The notes under the pieces were generated by a model. It saw nothing but the letters and a program-made list of their open reading frames with translations. It had not been told where the DNA came from and made no database searches. Source: Brevibacillus humidisoli (GTDB taxonomy: Bacteria; Bacillota; Bacilli; Brevibacillales; Brevibacillaceae). Taken from it: a DNA stretch of 64,000 nucleotides. This document shows positions 9,867 through 64,000 of this stretch, one piece after another (the stretch's first letter is position 1; each line of letters starts with the position of its first letter). The stretch covers positions 4,049,970 to 4,113,969 of the forward strand of contig NZ_CP087263.1 in NCBI RefSeq assembly GCF_020923435.1, in the 5' to 3' direction. A program made the position numbers and the translations under genes.

Positions 9867-9974
9867 CATGCATTCTTTTCTTTCCTTGGCAGCAACGATT
9901 GGTCGCGAAATCACAACCACCGTGGTTTTGACGACTACAAGTTCTTACGAATACAAAAGGAGGAGAAATCTCCG

Positions 9975-10616
9975 ATGATGACACACCGTTATCTCCTCTT
10001 TTCCGGAGGCAATCTCGGGGACTGGGCGCTTGACGAAGTGCAGGAGGGTGATGTGCTGGTCGGCGTTGACCGCGGGGCGCTCTTTTTGCTGCAGCACGGT
10101 ATCGTTCCAGCCTATGCCGTCGGAGATTTCGATTCCGTAAACGAGGCAGAACGAAGCCAGATCGAGCAGCAGGTAGCGAGCGTTGCGTCCTGTGATCCGG
10201 TGATGAAAGACCTGACCGATACGGAGATGGCCTTCCGATGGGCGCTCACACAGCAGCCGACGGAAATCATCCTGCTCGGTGCGGTAGGCAGCCGCCTGGA
10301 CCACACACTGGCCAATCTCCACCTGCTGGTCGAAGCGCAAAAGGCAACTGTGCCCTGCAGGATTGTCGACGAGAAAAACGAGGTGCTGCTCGTTGATGGC
10401 ACCGCACAGATCAAAAAGAGGCGCTACCGCTATGTCTCCCTGCTGCCGCTCAGCACACAGGTTACCGGCATTACGCTGGAGGGATTTCTCTACCCCTTGC
10501 ATCGCGCAACACTAACCATCGGCCAGTCACTCGGGATCAGCAACGAATTGCTGGGTTCACACGGTACGGTCAGCGTCGAGTCCGGACAACTCTTGCTCAT
10601 ACAGAGTTTGGATTAG
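9975..10616 (+). CDS. thiN: Thiamine diphosphokinase
   Basis: Transfers pyrophosphate from ATP to thiamine to make TPP, 213 aa. Hallmarks are GDFDSV near residue 50, KDLTDTE near 76, GSRLDHTLANL and the C-terminal GISNELLGS that lines the thiamine site. A GGAGGAG precedes the start at 9-base spacing. As last gene of the TPP-riboswitch operon it lets the cell convert salvaged thiamine directly to cofactor. In B. subtilis thiN stands alone, so its place in this uptake operon is informative. Confidence 0.95.
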   Translation: MMTHRYLLFSGGNLGDWALDEVQEGDVLVGVDRGALFLLQHGIVPAYAVGDFDSVNEAERSQIEQQVASVASCDPVMKDLTDTEMAFRWALTQQPTEIILLGAVGSRLDHTLANLHLLVEAQKATVPCRIVDEKNEVLLVDGTAQIKKRRYRYVSLLPLSTQVTGITLEGFLYPLHRATLTIGQSLGISNELLGSHGTVSVESGQLLLIQSLD

Positions 10617-10711
10617 CCGATATGCATTGTCTTGGGTTCGACTTAGATTCGCAAACACCTGCAACGTATCCGCACCAGAACACGTCTACATCAACAAAGA
10701 GGAGGTGCGCG

Positions 10712-12727
10712 ATGAAACGGAATCGTTTTTACTTTTTAACCATCCTTACGTTCCTGGTTGCACTCTCTGCCGGTTATTGGAACGGGTGGGGAGTGCGATC
10801 GGCTGACGATGGATATCTCTTGACTGATCAGCCCCATGCCTTTGCACAAACAGCGGATCAAACGACTGCTCCCAAGCAGGTAGAGCCGCTGCCGGTAGTG
10901 GGGTCCTACAACAATCTAAAAGCACTACTGGAAGAAGCGGAGAAAACCCGTGAACGGGTGTACCGTTACCGGGGAGTCAAAATGGCCCTCGAAACAACTG
11001 CTTCTGCCCCTGCCAGCAGCGAAGCCCAAGCAAAACAGGCAGCACCCTCGGCCGACTCAGGCATGGCCGCAGATTACTCGGGCACCAATGTTCAGGTTGC
11101 CGGCGTCGATGAATCCGACGTGGTCAAGACAGACGGTTCTTATCTGTATCTGGTGCGCAATCAACAGGTCGTTGTGGCACAGGCCACTCCCGCAGATCAG
11201 CTAAAGGTCGTCAGCACCCTCAATTACGCAGAAGAAGATCTCCGACCAAGTGAGCTGTACGTGGATGACAACTACCTGGTGGTGATCGGACATGATGCCG
11301 AACGGATCTCCAAAATTCCCTACCACCGCGAGCAGGTAAAAGCCATCGTCTATGATCTGCGTGACAAAACGAAGCTAAAACAGGTCAAAGAGGTTGCGCT
11401 GGAGGGTCACTATGTATCGTCCCGCAAGATCGGCTCTGCTCTCTATCTCGTCGCCAACCGATGGATCGACTCCCACTGGATTTTAAAAGAGCAGACGCAA
11501 CTGCCTGCCCCGGTGTACAGCGACTCGGCCAGCGGCGATGAGCCGATCCCGGTTGACTATGGCGATATGCGTTATTTCCCTGATTCGATCGAGCCGAACT
11601 ATCTGTTGATCGGCGGCATCAATCTGGATCGAATCGATCAGGAGATGCAGGTCTCCTCCTATCTGGGAGCGGGTGAAAATATCTACGCCTCACCTGAGCA
11701 CTTGTACGTAGCAGTGACCGATTACGAACTCAAGGAGACCTTTTTTATCGAACAGCCACCTGAGCAAAAGACACGGTTTTACAAGTTTGCTCTCCATGAC
11801 GGTACAACGGAATACCTGGCAAAAGGGGAAGTCCCCGGCCGCATCCTCAATCAGTTTTCGATGGATGAACACGACGGCTACTTCCGTGTGGCCACGACCA
11901 AAGGAGAAGTCTGGCGCACCGATGAGCATACCTCGAAGAACAACCTGTACATCTTGGACGACAGTCTAGCCTTGAAGGGCAAAATCGAGGACATCGCACC
12001 AGGCGAAAAAATCTACTCGGTCCGATTTATGGGCGACAGAGGATACATCGTAACGTTTAAGAAAGTGGACCCGTTGTTTGTGATCGATCTGAAAAACCCG
12101 GAGCAGCCAAAGATTCTCGGAAAACTGAAGATTCCCGGCTACAGCGATTACCTCCATCCCTACGACGAAAACCATCTGATCGGCTTCGGAAAAGACGCAG
12201 TGGAAGCCTCACGGGAAGGGGAACCAGGATCGGGCTCAGACACAATCGCCTTTTACCAAGGCATGAAGGTCGCTCTGTTTGACGTCAGCGATGTCAGCCA
12301 TCCGGTGGAAAAGTACAGCCTGATCATCGGCGATCGCGGCACCGATTCGGAACTGCTGCACAACCACAAGGCACTGCTTTTCTCCAAAGCGAAAAACCTG
12401 CTAGCGTTCCCAATCACCGTCAGAGAAATCCCGGAAAGCGTCAAACAGTCCAAAGCGCGTGACGTGACACGCTACGGCGAGTTTACGTTCCAGGGTGCCT
12501 ATGTCTACCAACTGGATCTCGACAAAGGCTTTACCCTGCGCAAAAAGATTACCCACCTCACAGAGCAGGACATGCTGAAGTCGGGTGACGGCTGGTACGA
12601 CAGCGAACGCAATGTGGAGCGAATCCTGTACATCGGCGACAAGCTGTACACCCTGTCTTCTTCGATGATTAAAGCACACGACCTTGACACGTATCAAGAA
12701 GTGGGAAGTCTCGCCCTGTCCGATTGA
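10712..12727 (+). CDS. Secreted beta-propeller domain protein (COG4880 type)
   Basis: A 671-aa exported protein. The start is ATG 10712 behind GAGGAGG; the longer frame adds 30 unlikely residues. Residues 1-25 form a signal peptide or membrane anchor (RFYFLTILTFLVALSAGYW), followed by a low-complexity linker. From about residue 115 (TNVQVAGVDESDVVKTDG) to the end is the beta-propeller region of the family described as distantly WD40-like, with repeated strand patterns such as YLYLVRNQQVVV, YIVTFKKVDPLFVIDLKNP and VALFDVSDVSHPV. No catalytic function is known to me. It begins 96 bp after thiN with its own ribosome site and is probably a separate unit. Confidence 0.82.
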   Translation: MKRNRFYFLTILTFLVALSAGYWNGWGVRSADDGYLLTDQPHAFAQTADQTTAPKQVEPLPVVGSYNNLKALLEEAEKTRERVYRYRGVKMALETTASAPASSEAQAKQAAPSADSGMAADYSGTNVQVAGVDESDVVKTDGSYLYLVRNQQVVVAQATPADQLKVVSTLNYAEEDLRPSELYVDDNYLVVIGHDAERISKIPYHREQVKAIVYDLRDKTKLKQVKEVALEGHYVSSRKIGSALYLVANRWIDSHWILKEQTQLPAPVYSDSASGDEPIPVDYGDMRYFPDSIEPNYLLIGGINLDRIDQEMQVSSYLGAGENIYASPEHLYVAVTDYELKETFFIEQPPEQKTRFYKFALHDGTTEYLAKGEVPGRILNQFSMDEHDGYFRVATTKGEVWRTDEHTSKNNLYILDDSLALKGKIEDIAPGEKIYSVRFMGDRGYIVTFKKVDPLFVIDLKNPEQPKILGKLKIPGYSDYLHPYDENHLIGFGKDAVEASREGEPGSGSDTIAFYQGMKVALFDVSDVSHPVEKYSLIIGDRGTDSELLHNHKALLFSKAKNLLAFPITVREIPESVKQSKARDVTRYGEFTFQGAYVYQLDLDKGFTLRKKITHLTEQDMLKSGDGWYDSERNVERILYIGDKLYTLSSSMIKAHDLDTYQEVGSLALSD

Positions 12728-12865
12728 GCAAAAAGTTTGTCAATTAGTCACATGCAGCGCAGCCACACTGCTCTCCATGTATGGTAGGATTAGACCTATT
12801 GCTGTCAAGCAGGCGGTAGTTTCTGTAAAGTGACGGCAAGTTGTGCGAAATAGCTGCTTTTGTAG

Positions 12866-12871
12866 TATAAT
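12866..12871 (+). promoter_or_regulatory. Probable -10 box of the trhO promoter
   Basis: A perfect TATAAT about 50 bases before the trhO start. The best -35 (TTGTGC) is 19 bases upstream, longer than ideal. Confidence 0.5.
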
Positions 12872-12921
12872 AGCAGGTATTGCACATCATCTATCCTGCA
12901 AATAGATGGAGGTATTTGAAA

Positions 12922-13884
12922 ATGGAACAGCAACAAAAACCGTACAGAGTCTTGCTCTACTACAAGTATGTGCCGATTGAGGACCATGAGCAGTTTGCAC
13001 AGGAGCATCTGACATTCTGCAAGGAGCTGGGTCTCAAGGGACGGATTCTGGTAGCACCGGAAGGAATCAACGGCACCGTATCCGGCACGGTTGAACAGAC
13101 ACAGATTTACATGGACACTATGCACCAGGACTCTCGCTTCGCCGACATGGTTTTCAAGATTGACGAAGCAGACGGGCATGCTTTTAAAAAGATGTTCGTA
13201 CGCCCGCGCAATGAGTTGGTTACCTTCCGCCTGCCGGAAGACATCAACCCCAACGAATTGAGCGGCAAACGCCTCTCCCCTAAAGAGTTCTACGAGATGC
13301 TGCAGCGCGAGGATGTCGTCGTGCTGGACGGACGCAACACGTACGAATACGATATCGGACACTTCCGCGGCGCGATTCGCCCCGATGTGGAATCGTTCCG
13401 TGAGTTCCCGGAATGGATCAAAGAGAACTTCCAACAGTTTAAGGATAAAAAAGTACTGACCTACTGCACCGGCGGAATCCGCTGTGAAAAACTGACGGGA
13501 TTGCTGCTGAAAGAAGGTTTTCAGGATGTGTACCAACTGCACGGCGGGATTGTCACCTATGGCAAGGACCCGGAAGTGAAAGGGCATTTGTTTGACGGGA
13601 AGTGCTACGTCTTTGACGAACGGATCTCCGTACCGATCAACCAGGTGGAAGATGTTGTCGTCGGCAAGTGTTATCACTGCGGAAAACCGGAAGATCGCTA
13701 CGTCAACTGTGCCAACCCGGAATGCAACCTGCAGCATATCTGCTGTGAAGAATGCGAGAAAACCTATAAACGCTCCTGCTCGCAGGAGTGCCGTGAACAC
13801 AAGCGGAACCGCTATGTGCTGGAGCAAGAGGCAAACCAAGCGACAGCAAAAGAAGAACGGCAGGTTAGCAAAGTAGGCTCCTGA
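12922..13884 (+). CDS. trhO: Oxygen-dependent tRNA uridine(34) hydroxylase (rhodanese-like)
   Basis: TrhO hydroxylates U34 of certain tRNAs to 5-hydroxyuridine using oxygen; 320 aa. I use ATG 12922 with GGAGG upstream. An N-terminal acylphosphatase-like domain (residues 8-100) is followed by a rhodanese domain whose active loop [10 protein letters not shown] places the catalytic Cys at 182. The C-terminal part is Cys-rich ([28 protein letters not shown]), probably zinc binding, as in the Bacillus form. It stands alone between a promoter and a strong terminator. Confidence 0.94.
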
Positions 13885-63569: not shown

Positions 63570-63616
63570 GCAAAAAAACACCCTTGCGATAAGAAAGCTC
63601 TTACCGCAAGGGTGTT
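63570..63616 (-). terminator. Terminator of the peptide/TPR unit
   Basis: AACACCCTTGCG pairs with CGCAAGGGTGTT and the inner TAAGA/TCTTA extends the stem; on the minus strand TTTTTTT follows. Confidence 0.9.
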
Positions 63617-63644
63617 CCCATGTTCGGCCAACTTGTTGTACGGC

Positions 63645-63770
63645 TTACCAGTCTGGCTCGACGAGTACAACCGCGTTATTTGCTTGTCCATTTTGATTCG
63701 GCACTGTTGTAGGCATCGCAGTTATACTGAAAAGCAAAGCAAAAGCCAATACAGATAACCATTTTTTCAT
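63645..63770 (-). CDS. Secreted Phr-like signalling propeptide
   Basis: A 41-codon gene with AAAGGAGG at ideal spacing. The product has a classic export signal (MKKWLSVLAFALLFSITAM) and a hydrophilic tail of about 20 residues ending VVLVEPDW. It starts 21 bp after the stop of a probable TPR regulator gene and is followed by a terminator, which is the organisation of rap-phr type pairs: the propeptide is exported, trimmed to a short C-terminal peptide, re-imported and bound by the TPR protein. The mature peptide and its target are inference. Confidence 0.7.
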   Translation of the reverse strand: MKKWLSVLAFALLFSITAMPTTVPNQNGQANNAVVLVEPDW

Positions 63771-63791
63771 GCGATAAACCTCCTTTGCCCT

Positions 63792-64000
63792 TTAATTGTC
63801 ATCATAGCATATATTTACTATTAATTCCATATGTTCGAAGGATAAATTTTTTTCGTATATCCGATGGTGCTTCAGGAAAAGGCCGACACACTCGATCACC
63901 TTTTCCGAAGCTCCCAGTTTTCGATAGAACGAAATGCTTTGCAGCAGGCTGTTGAACCCTTCATCGGTGAGTCCTATGGAAAGCTGGCACATCCCCTTTT
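63792..64000 (-). CDS. C-terminal end of a TPR regulator (RRNPP/Rap-like), partial
   Basis: The last 68 codons of a gene that continues beyond the right edge. The chain is helical with a TPR-like beat: LLQSISFYRKLGASEKVIECVGLFLKHHRIYEKN. An internal ATG lies directly against AAGGGG with no spacer, so it is not the start. The short secreted-peptide gene behind it points to a peptide-sensing TPR regulator; whether it is a Rap phosphatase or a DNA-binding member cannot be told from this part. Confidence 0.6.
   Translation of the reverse strand, partial: KGMCQLSIGLTDEGFNSLLQSISFYRKLGASEKVIECVGLFLKHHRIYEKNLSFEHMELIVNICYDDN

Follow-up and report, generated by a model that had tools for sequence, protein, structure and literature searches.

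A probable two-gene quorum-sensing pair of the cluster 8 / subfamily 08 type with an EPDW-ending propeptide on the chromosome of Brevibacillus humidisoli

The window analysed here is a stretch of 64,000 nucleotides, contig positions 4049970-4113969 (C1) of the single-contig, 4.91 Mb genome of Brevibacillus humidisoli. At its far end lies a two-gene operon on the minus strand, the first gene of which runs past the window edge and was completed from the adjoining sequence (window-equivalent coordinates below). The operon comprises the following features.

63792-64000, minus strand: 3' part of the receptor gene (C-terminus of a 417-aa protein with HTH and TPR parts), with its TAA stop at 63792
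G000:C1:4113761-4115014 = L003:3762-5015, window-equivalent 63792-65045, minus strand: complete receptor gene, with an ATG start
63778-63786, minus strand: ribosome site of the propeptide gene, AAAGGAGGT, read from the sequence
63645-63770, minus strand: gene of the 41-aa, putatively exported propeptide MKKWLSVLAFALLFSITAMPTTVPNQNGQANNAVVLVEPDW, an ORF with counterparts beside 125 of 132 homologous receptors
63648-63671, minus strand: codons of VVLVEPDW, in which EPDW forms the conserved core of what is presumed to be the mature signal (from an alignment of 21 EPDW-type propeptide tails)
63574-63619, minus strand: intrinsic terminator (from its folding energy), which ends the two-gene operon ahead of a LacI-family gene

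The first-pass annotation had described a 41-codon gene with a good ribosome site, placed 21 bp behind an upstream gene and followed by a strong terminator, and each of these elements is borne out by the sequence. The receptor TAA and the propeptide start are exactly 21 bp apart, and the terminator is a hairpin of 20-21 bp with a T run behind it; its folding energy is -31.7 kcal/mol (z = -6.7), a stability that none of 200 shuffles reached. A simple terminator scan did not pick it up. A regulator gene had been noted nearby but terminated off from the pair: this is the LacI-type gene, which lies past the terminator with a PfkB sugar-kinase gene and a TRAP binding protein gene alongside. The genes around the pair have transporter and metabolism functions, and no phage genes were seen in the region read.

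The upstream gene had been taken for a TPR regulator from its C-terminus, and the full protein agrees with this. Pfam places an HTH_3 domain at residues 10-61 (E = 2.2e-14), and the HTH is intact and conserved across the receptor family. The Pfam TPR models stayed below their cut-offs on the single receptor sequence; a profile built from 31 relatives matched consensus TPR proteins in four stretches (E = 8e-15), and the same profile matched the SinR HTH (6.5e-11) and ComR (8.8e-6). A structural model of the Brevibacillus thermoruber orthologue, which is 62% identical to the receptor, shows five HTH helices and then nine helix pairs (built with 13 relatives; mean pLDDT 89.7, pTM 0.79). The TPR part of this model superimposes on NprR with a Z of 19.3 over 292 residues and on Rap with a Z of about 19, both ranking near the top, and AimR aligned to the model over nearly its full length. 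The structural searches did not single out the RRNPP proteins, and unrelated TPR proteins scored equally high in Z, so that these matches support the fold and the architecture but not by themselves the function. Both domain types are found in the protein once it is read beyond position 64000.

The presence of the HTH bears directly on how the pair is to be classified. Rap-Phr or a related RRNPP system had been proposed from the gene arrangement; the RRNPP-like part of this proposal stands, and the Rap-Phr part does not, as the receptor is an HTH-bearing transcription factor. A receptor of the Rap type would act by protein-protein contact, for example as a phosphatase of Spo0F, and not on DNA. 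Its TPR fold does resemble that of Rap, and many members of the family adjoin Spo0E-like genes of the sporulation phosphorelay; the intact HTH, conserved family-wide, makes this mode of action very improbable here. DNA-binding and protein-contact roles can nevertheless coexist in one protein, as in NprR of the Bacillus cereus group.

The second gene was followed across a collection of 132 distinct receptors, encoded on genomes, plasmids and phages. The propeptide has a basic start and a hydrophobic stretch (Kyte-Doolittle rule) resembling a signal sequence, and candidates at other loci were defined as ORFs of 28-70 aa with the same two properties that start between -50 and +130 bp from the receptor stop. 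Such an ORF lies beside 125 of the 132 receptors, whereas random anchors within these loci have one in 153 of 1,202 cases; requiring a good ribosome site gives 99/132 and 18/1,202, and requiring a tail motif of the family 108/132 and 3/1,202. The tail classes were named after the sequences had been viewed, which makes the motif count a descriptive one but leaves the ORF count untouched. For seven of the 132 receptors, one close relative (L019) among them, no propeptide candidate was found. The signal-peptide-like start initially seen on the small ORF is in this way a conserved trait of the family, and the comparison of short ORFs at homologous loci extends the conservation to the tail.

The tails fall into several classes: DPG followed by an aromatic residue or His (50 of the 125), [E/D]P[D/E]W with close variants (21), xPW (14-17), DPxG (11) and PEPW (about 10). 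The tail of the pair under study is EPDW and has no DPG. In the alignment of the 21 EPDW-type propeptides the tail is conserved and the part preceding it is variable. Some relatives carry two tail copies inside one propeptide (ADPDWVKFVITFADPDW, VDPDWKRVIIATVDPDW), and two propeptide genes, or two signal copies in one propeptide, occur at L022, L023, L025 and L026. These features point to the PDW-containing tail as the likely functional unit of the propeptide. In two other relatives (L219, L226) the propeptides are 59 aa long and bear an internal repeat, LAIDVPYKNSNNDSLLAVDVPYGIS, ahead of a DPGY tail.

When the tail classes are mapped on a receptor tree built by a quick maximum-likelihood method, 12 changes suffice to explain their distribution; the minimum possible is 5, and shuffled labels needed 67 on average, with none of 200 shuffles as low. 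The propeptide tail type tracks the receptor lineage. The EPDW class accounts for one change and lies entirely on one side of a single branch, the support of which, 93, is just under the threshold of 95; the receptor under study belongs to a starred set of 26 rows (95 threshold) that contains all 21 EPDW rows, three of the DPG type and two unclassed. These observations also weigh on a different explanation of the small ORF, namely that it encodes some other short secreted peptide, bacteriocin-like or membrane-active, to which the HTH regulator is unrelated. Bacteriocin loci too can have short secreted peptides beside XRE regulators, and the pairing as such would fit. A tail that is conserved while the preceding part varies, that follows the receptor tree in its class and that is duplicated in tandem within a single propeptide speaks against it, as does an operon that holds no immunity, modification or transport gene, and we consider a bacteriocin-like product extremely unlikely.

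A secreted signal sensed by its neighbour is the favoured reading, and the dimensions of the pair agree with it. The RRNPP signature has been defined as adjacent genes for an exported and processed propeptide of 10-100 aa and a TPR receptor of 250-500 aa, the activity of which changes when the mature peptide binds its TPR domain (PMC10075063). The propeptide (41 aa) and the receptor (417 aa) lie inside these ranges, and the two genes, 21 bp apart here, are kept side by side at 125 of the 132 homologous loci. Receptor relatives at E <= 1e-20 are present in 28 of the 39 genomes of the family. The named ones are Brevibacillus species, class-wide and phylum-wide searches recovered the receptor family only in Brevibacillaceae, and one more genus with it came from a search within the family of G064. 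Relatives are also present on Brevibacillus phages.

The assignment to a subfamily hinges on a plasmid. Brevibacillus laterosporus LMG 15441 has been reported to carry on a plasmid one AloR-AloP system and one novel system of cluster 8 (Bernard 2023, PMC10075063), and its plasmid pBRLA33 has two candidate receptors, at 9893-11191 and 11580-12992. An AloR13-type reference was recovered through the published mature peptide SHGRGG: a propeptide with this ending is preceded by a 470-aa receptor and followed by a Spo0E-like gene, in keeping with the published AloR13 layout (PMC7425212), and this gene (ORF L138:2693-2920) served as the Spo0E reference in the neighbour survey. Over its length the AloR13-type receptor shares 45% identity with the product of 11580-12992, which identifies the latter as the AloR and leaves the receptor family under study as cluster 8; the receptor under study aligns with the other product, that of 9893-11191, at 34% identity over 96% of the query. 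Cluster 8 is called subfamily 08 in FoldTree, and its peptides are reported to have a DPG motif in common with those of AimR, widespread though not obligatory (PMC12700828); the DPG-type tails across the receptor family fit this description. Elimination and the reported motif leave cluster 8 / subfamily 08 as the probable home of the family. A literature search, which was not exhaustive, found no experiment on a subfamily 08 member.

Membership of the AloR-AloP systems of Paenibacillus polymyxa had been the first guess from the literature, and there is something to be said for it: the gene order, the architecture of an HTH with nine TPRs and the host families are the same, and AloR-like proteins have been reported in Brevibacillus (PMC7425212). 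The guess was rejected on direct comparison, in which the AloR13-type receptor matched the receptor under study at 25% identity over 91 residues of the HTH region only; a profile comparison stops at the HTH region as well. The published criterion for an AloR is an identity to AloR13 of 30% or more over 80% (PMC10075063), and the receptor under study falls below this. Full-length members of its family are, moreover, absent from polymyxa-type genomes, the AloR13-type receptor resembles the other pBRLA33 receptor, and the genome under study carries AloR-type receptors of its own, all of which makes a polymyxa-type AloR-AloP identity highly improbable. The pair is very probably an RRNPP quorum-sensing module of two genes that belongs to the predicted type called cluster 8 / subfamily 08.

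The genome holds further systems. A second pair of the same family lies at G000:C1:4381316-4382578 (L005), with a receptor 37% identical and a propeptide ending in KPYVYDPGH. AloR13-type receptors are found at G000:C1:576328-581073, 2280920-2282164 and 4603753-4605049, among them three in a row and one broken copy, so that two or more RRNPP subfamilies occur together in the cell. The pair also has phage and prophage copies, on the Brevibacillus phages Sundance and SecTim467 (L051, L052) and on IMG/VR contigs (L162-L171); most of them are of the DPG type and have a Spo0E-like gene downstream at a distance of a few hundred bp, and in SecTim467 an AloR-type receptor follows directly behind the copy of the pair.

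Over the whole sample a Spo0E-like gene lies within 1.2 kb after the receptor at 46 of 132 loci, and beside the EPDW-type pairs at none of 21. Beyond closely related species pairs, no neighbours are conserved across the EPDW branch except one secreted protein. This protein, of about 235 aa or in a shortened relative, matches no Pfam family and lies behind the pair at four related loci (L162, from about 1941, L023, L026 and L049).

Upstream of the receptor gene, at window-equivalent 65123-65134, the palindrome GGAAGGTATTCC overlaps the -35 (TTCCCA) of a promoter that was also flagged by a promoter scan, and its start lies 31 nt ahead of an extended -10, TGCTATGAT. Scored alone this short palindrome is not beyond chance (p = 0.43), and its weight lies in its position, which is common to relatives. 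GGWAA-N3-TTWCC or GGAA-N4-TTCC occurs at -76 to -89 in 9 of 21 EPDW-type loci, mostly with an extended -10 at +31, compared with 3 of 111 loci of the other classes, and in seven of 15 aligned loci the distance from the palindrome start to the best -10 is exactly 31 nt. For 16 branch members the best palindrome scores average 8.81, against 7.43 (sd 0.15) for shuffled sequences, the members being related and not independent. The position of the palindrome, across the -35 of the receptor gene, suggests autoregulation in the EPDW branch. Because the site covers the -35 we favour autorepression altered by the peptide, the direction of the switch being a guess from the position of the site; AloR13 is an activator that is silenced by its peptide (PMC7425212). 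A separate propeptide promoter was also considered and is not claimed: an extended -10-like TGCTATGAT lies inside the 3' end of the receptor gene, with no convincing -35.

The intergenic region with the palindrome is common to the receptor gene and its divergent upstream neighbour, a potassium-channel gene, and this divergent arrangement is not conserved. The potassium-channel gene (Ion_trans_2, RCK/TrkA_N; L003:5378-6402, plus strand, window-equivalent 65408-66432) seemingly consists of two frames with a 4-nt overlap, possibly a frameshift or a sequencing error.

By the precedent of the RRNPP family, the propeptide would leave the cell by Sec and be cut outside it, releasing a C-terminal peptide about 5-8 residues long that ends in EPDW. 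The mature peptide would return through an oligopeptide permease and bind in the TPR groove of the receptor, changing the binding of the HTH to DNA; the most likely first target would be the pair's own promoter, at GGAAGGTATTCC.

The signal had initially been thought possibly new. A prediction of the subfamily dates from 2023 (PMC10075063) and the mention of its DPG peptides from 2025 (PMC12700828); what is new concerns the EPDW branch, in which [E/D]P[D/E]W replaces DPG, no Spo0E-like gene is adjacent (0/21) and the palindrome is found in 9/21 promoters. Tentatively, and with the balance tilting slightly the other way, the branch may form, within subfamily 08, a line with a function of its own that is no longer part of the sporulation (Spo0E) circuit, autoregulates through a GGWAA-N3-TTWCC operator of its own and controls a distinct regulon, with no cross-talk to the DPG-type pair and the several AloR systems coexisting in the cell. 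The pair offers a compact chromosomal test case that is self-contained: an operon of two genes, with a predicted operator and a predicted signal that ends in EPDW. The family-wide match between tail class and receptor clade and the tandem signal copies recommend it for studying how peptide-receptor specificities split.

Set against the known systems, the pair is closest to cluster 8 / subfamily 08 (PMC10075063, PMC12700828), with which it has in common Paenibacillaceae hosts, an HTH with nine TPRs, a receptor gene followed by that of a putatively secreted propeptide, and an occurrence on chromosomes, plasmids and phages, in addition to the relative on pBRLA33 and the family-wide DPG-type tails. 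Unlike cluster 8 at large, the EPDW branch ends in [E/D]P[D/E]W rather than DPG plus an aromatic residue, has no adjacent Spo0E-like gene and bears a distinct palindrome in its promoter. AloR-AloP of Paenibacillus polymyxa (PMC7425212) resembles the pair in gene order, architecture, a propeptide that would be exported and many copies per genome, and a Spo0E-like neighbour occurs in part of each family, whereas the receptors are alignable over the HTH region only and the AloP13 peptide SHGRGG has neither PDW nor DPG. The arbitrium system AimR-AimP likewise combines an HTH with nine degenerate TPRs and is reported to have the DPG motif in common with subfamily 08 (PMC12700828), but the pair under study is chromosomal and its match to the NCBIfam AimR model covers the HTH only (15.8 bits against a cut-off of 70, E = 0.005). 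NprR-NprX and Rap-Phr have in common with it the TPR superhelix (structural Z about 19) and, by prediction for the pair, an exported C-terminal signal; their receptors are, however, not among the best sequence-level TPR matches of the receptor, their peptides are unrelated, and Rap has no HTH where the receptor under study bears a clear HTH_3.
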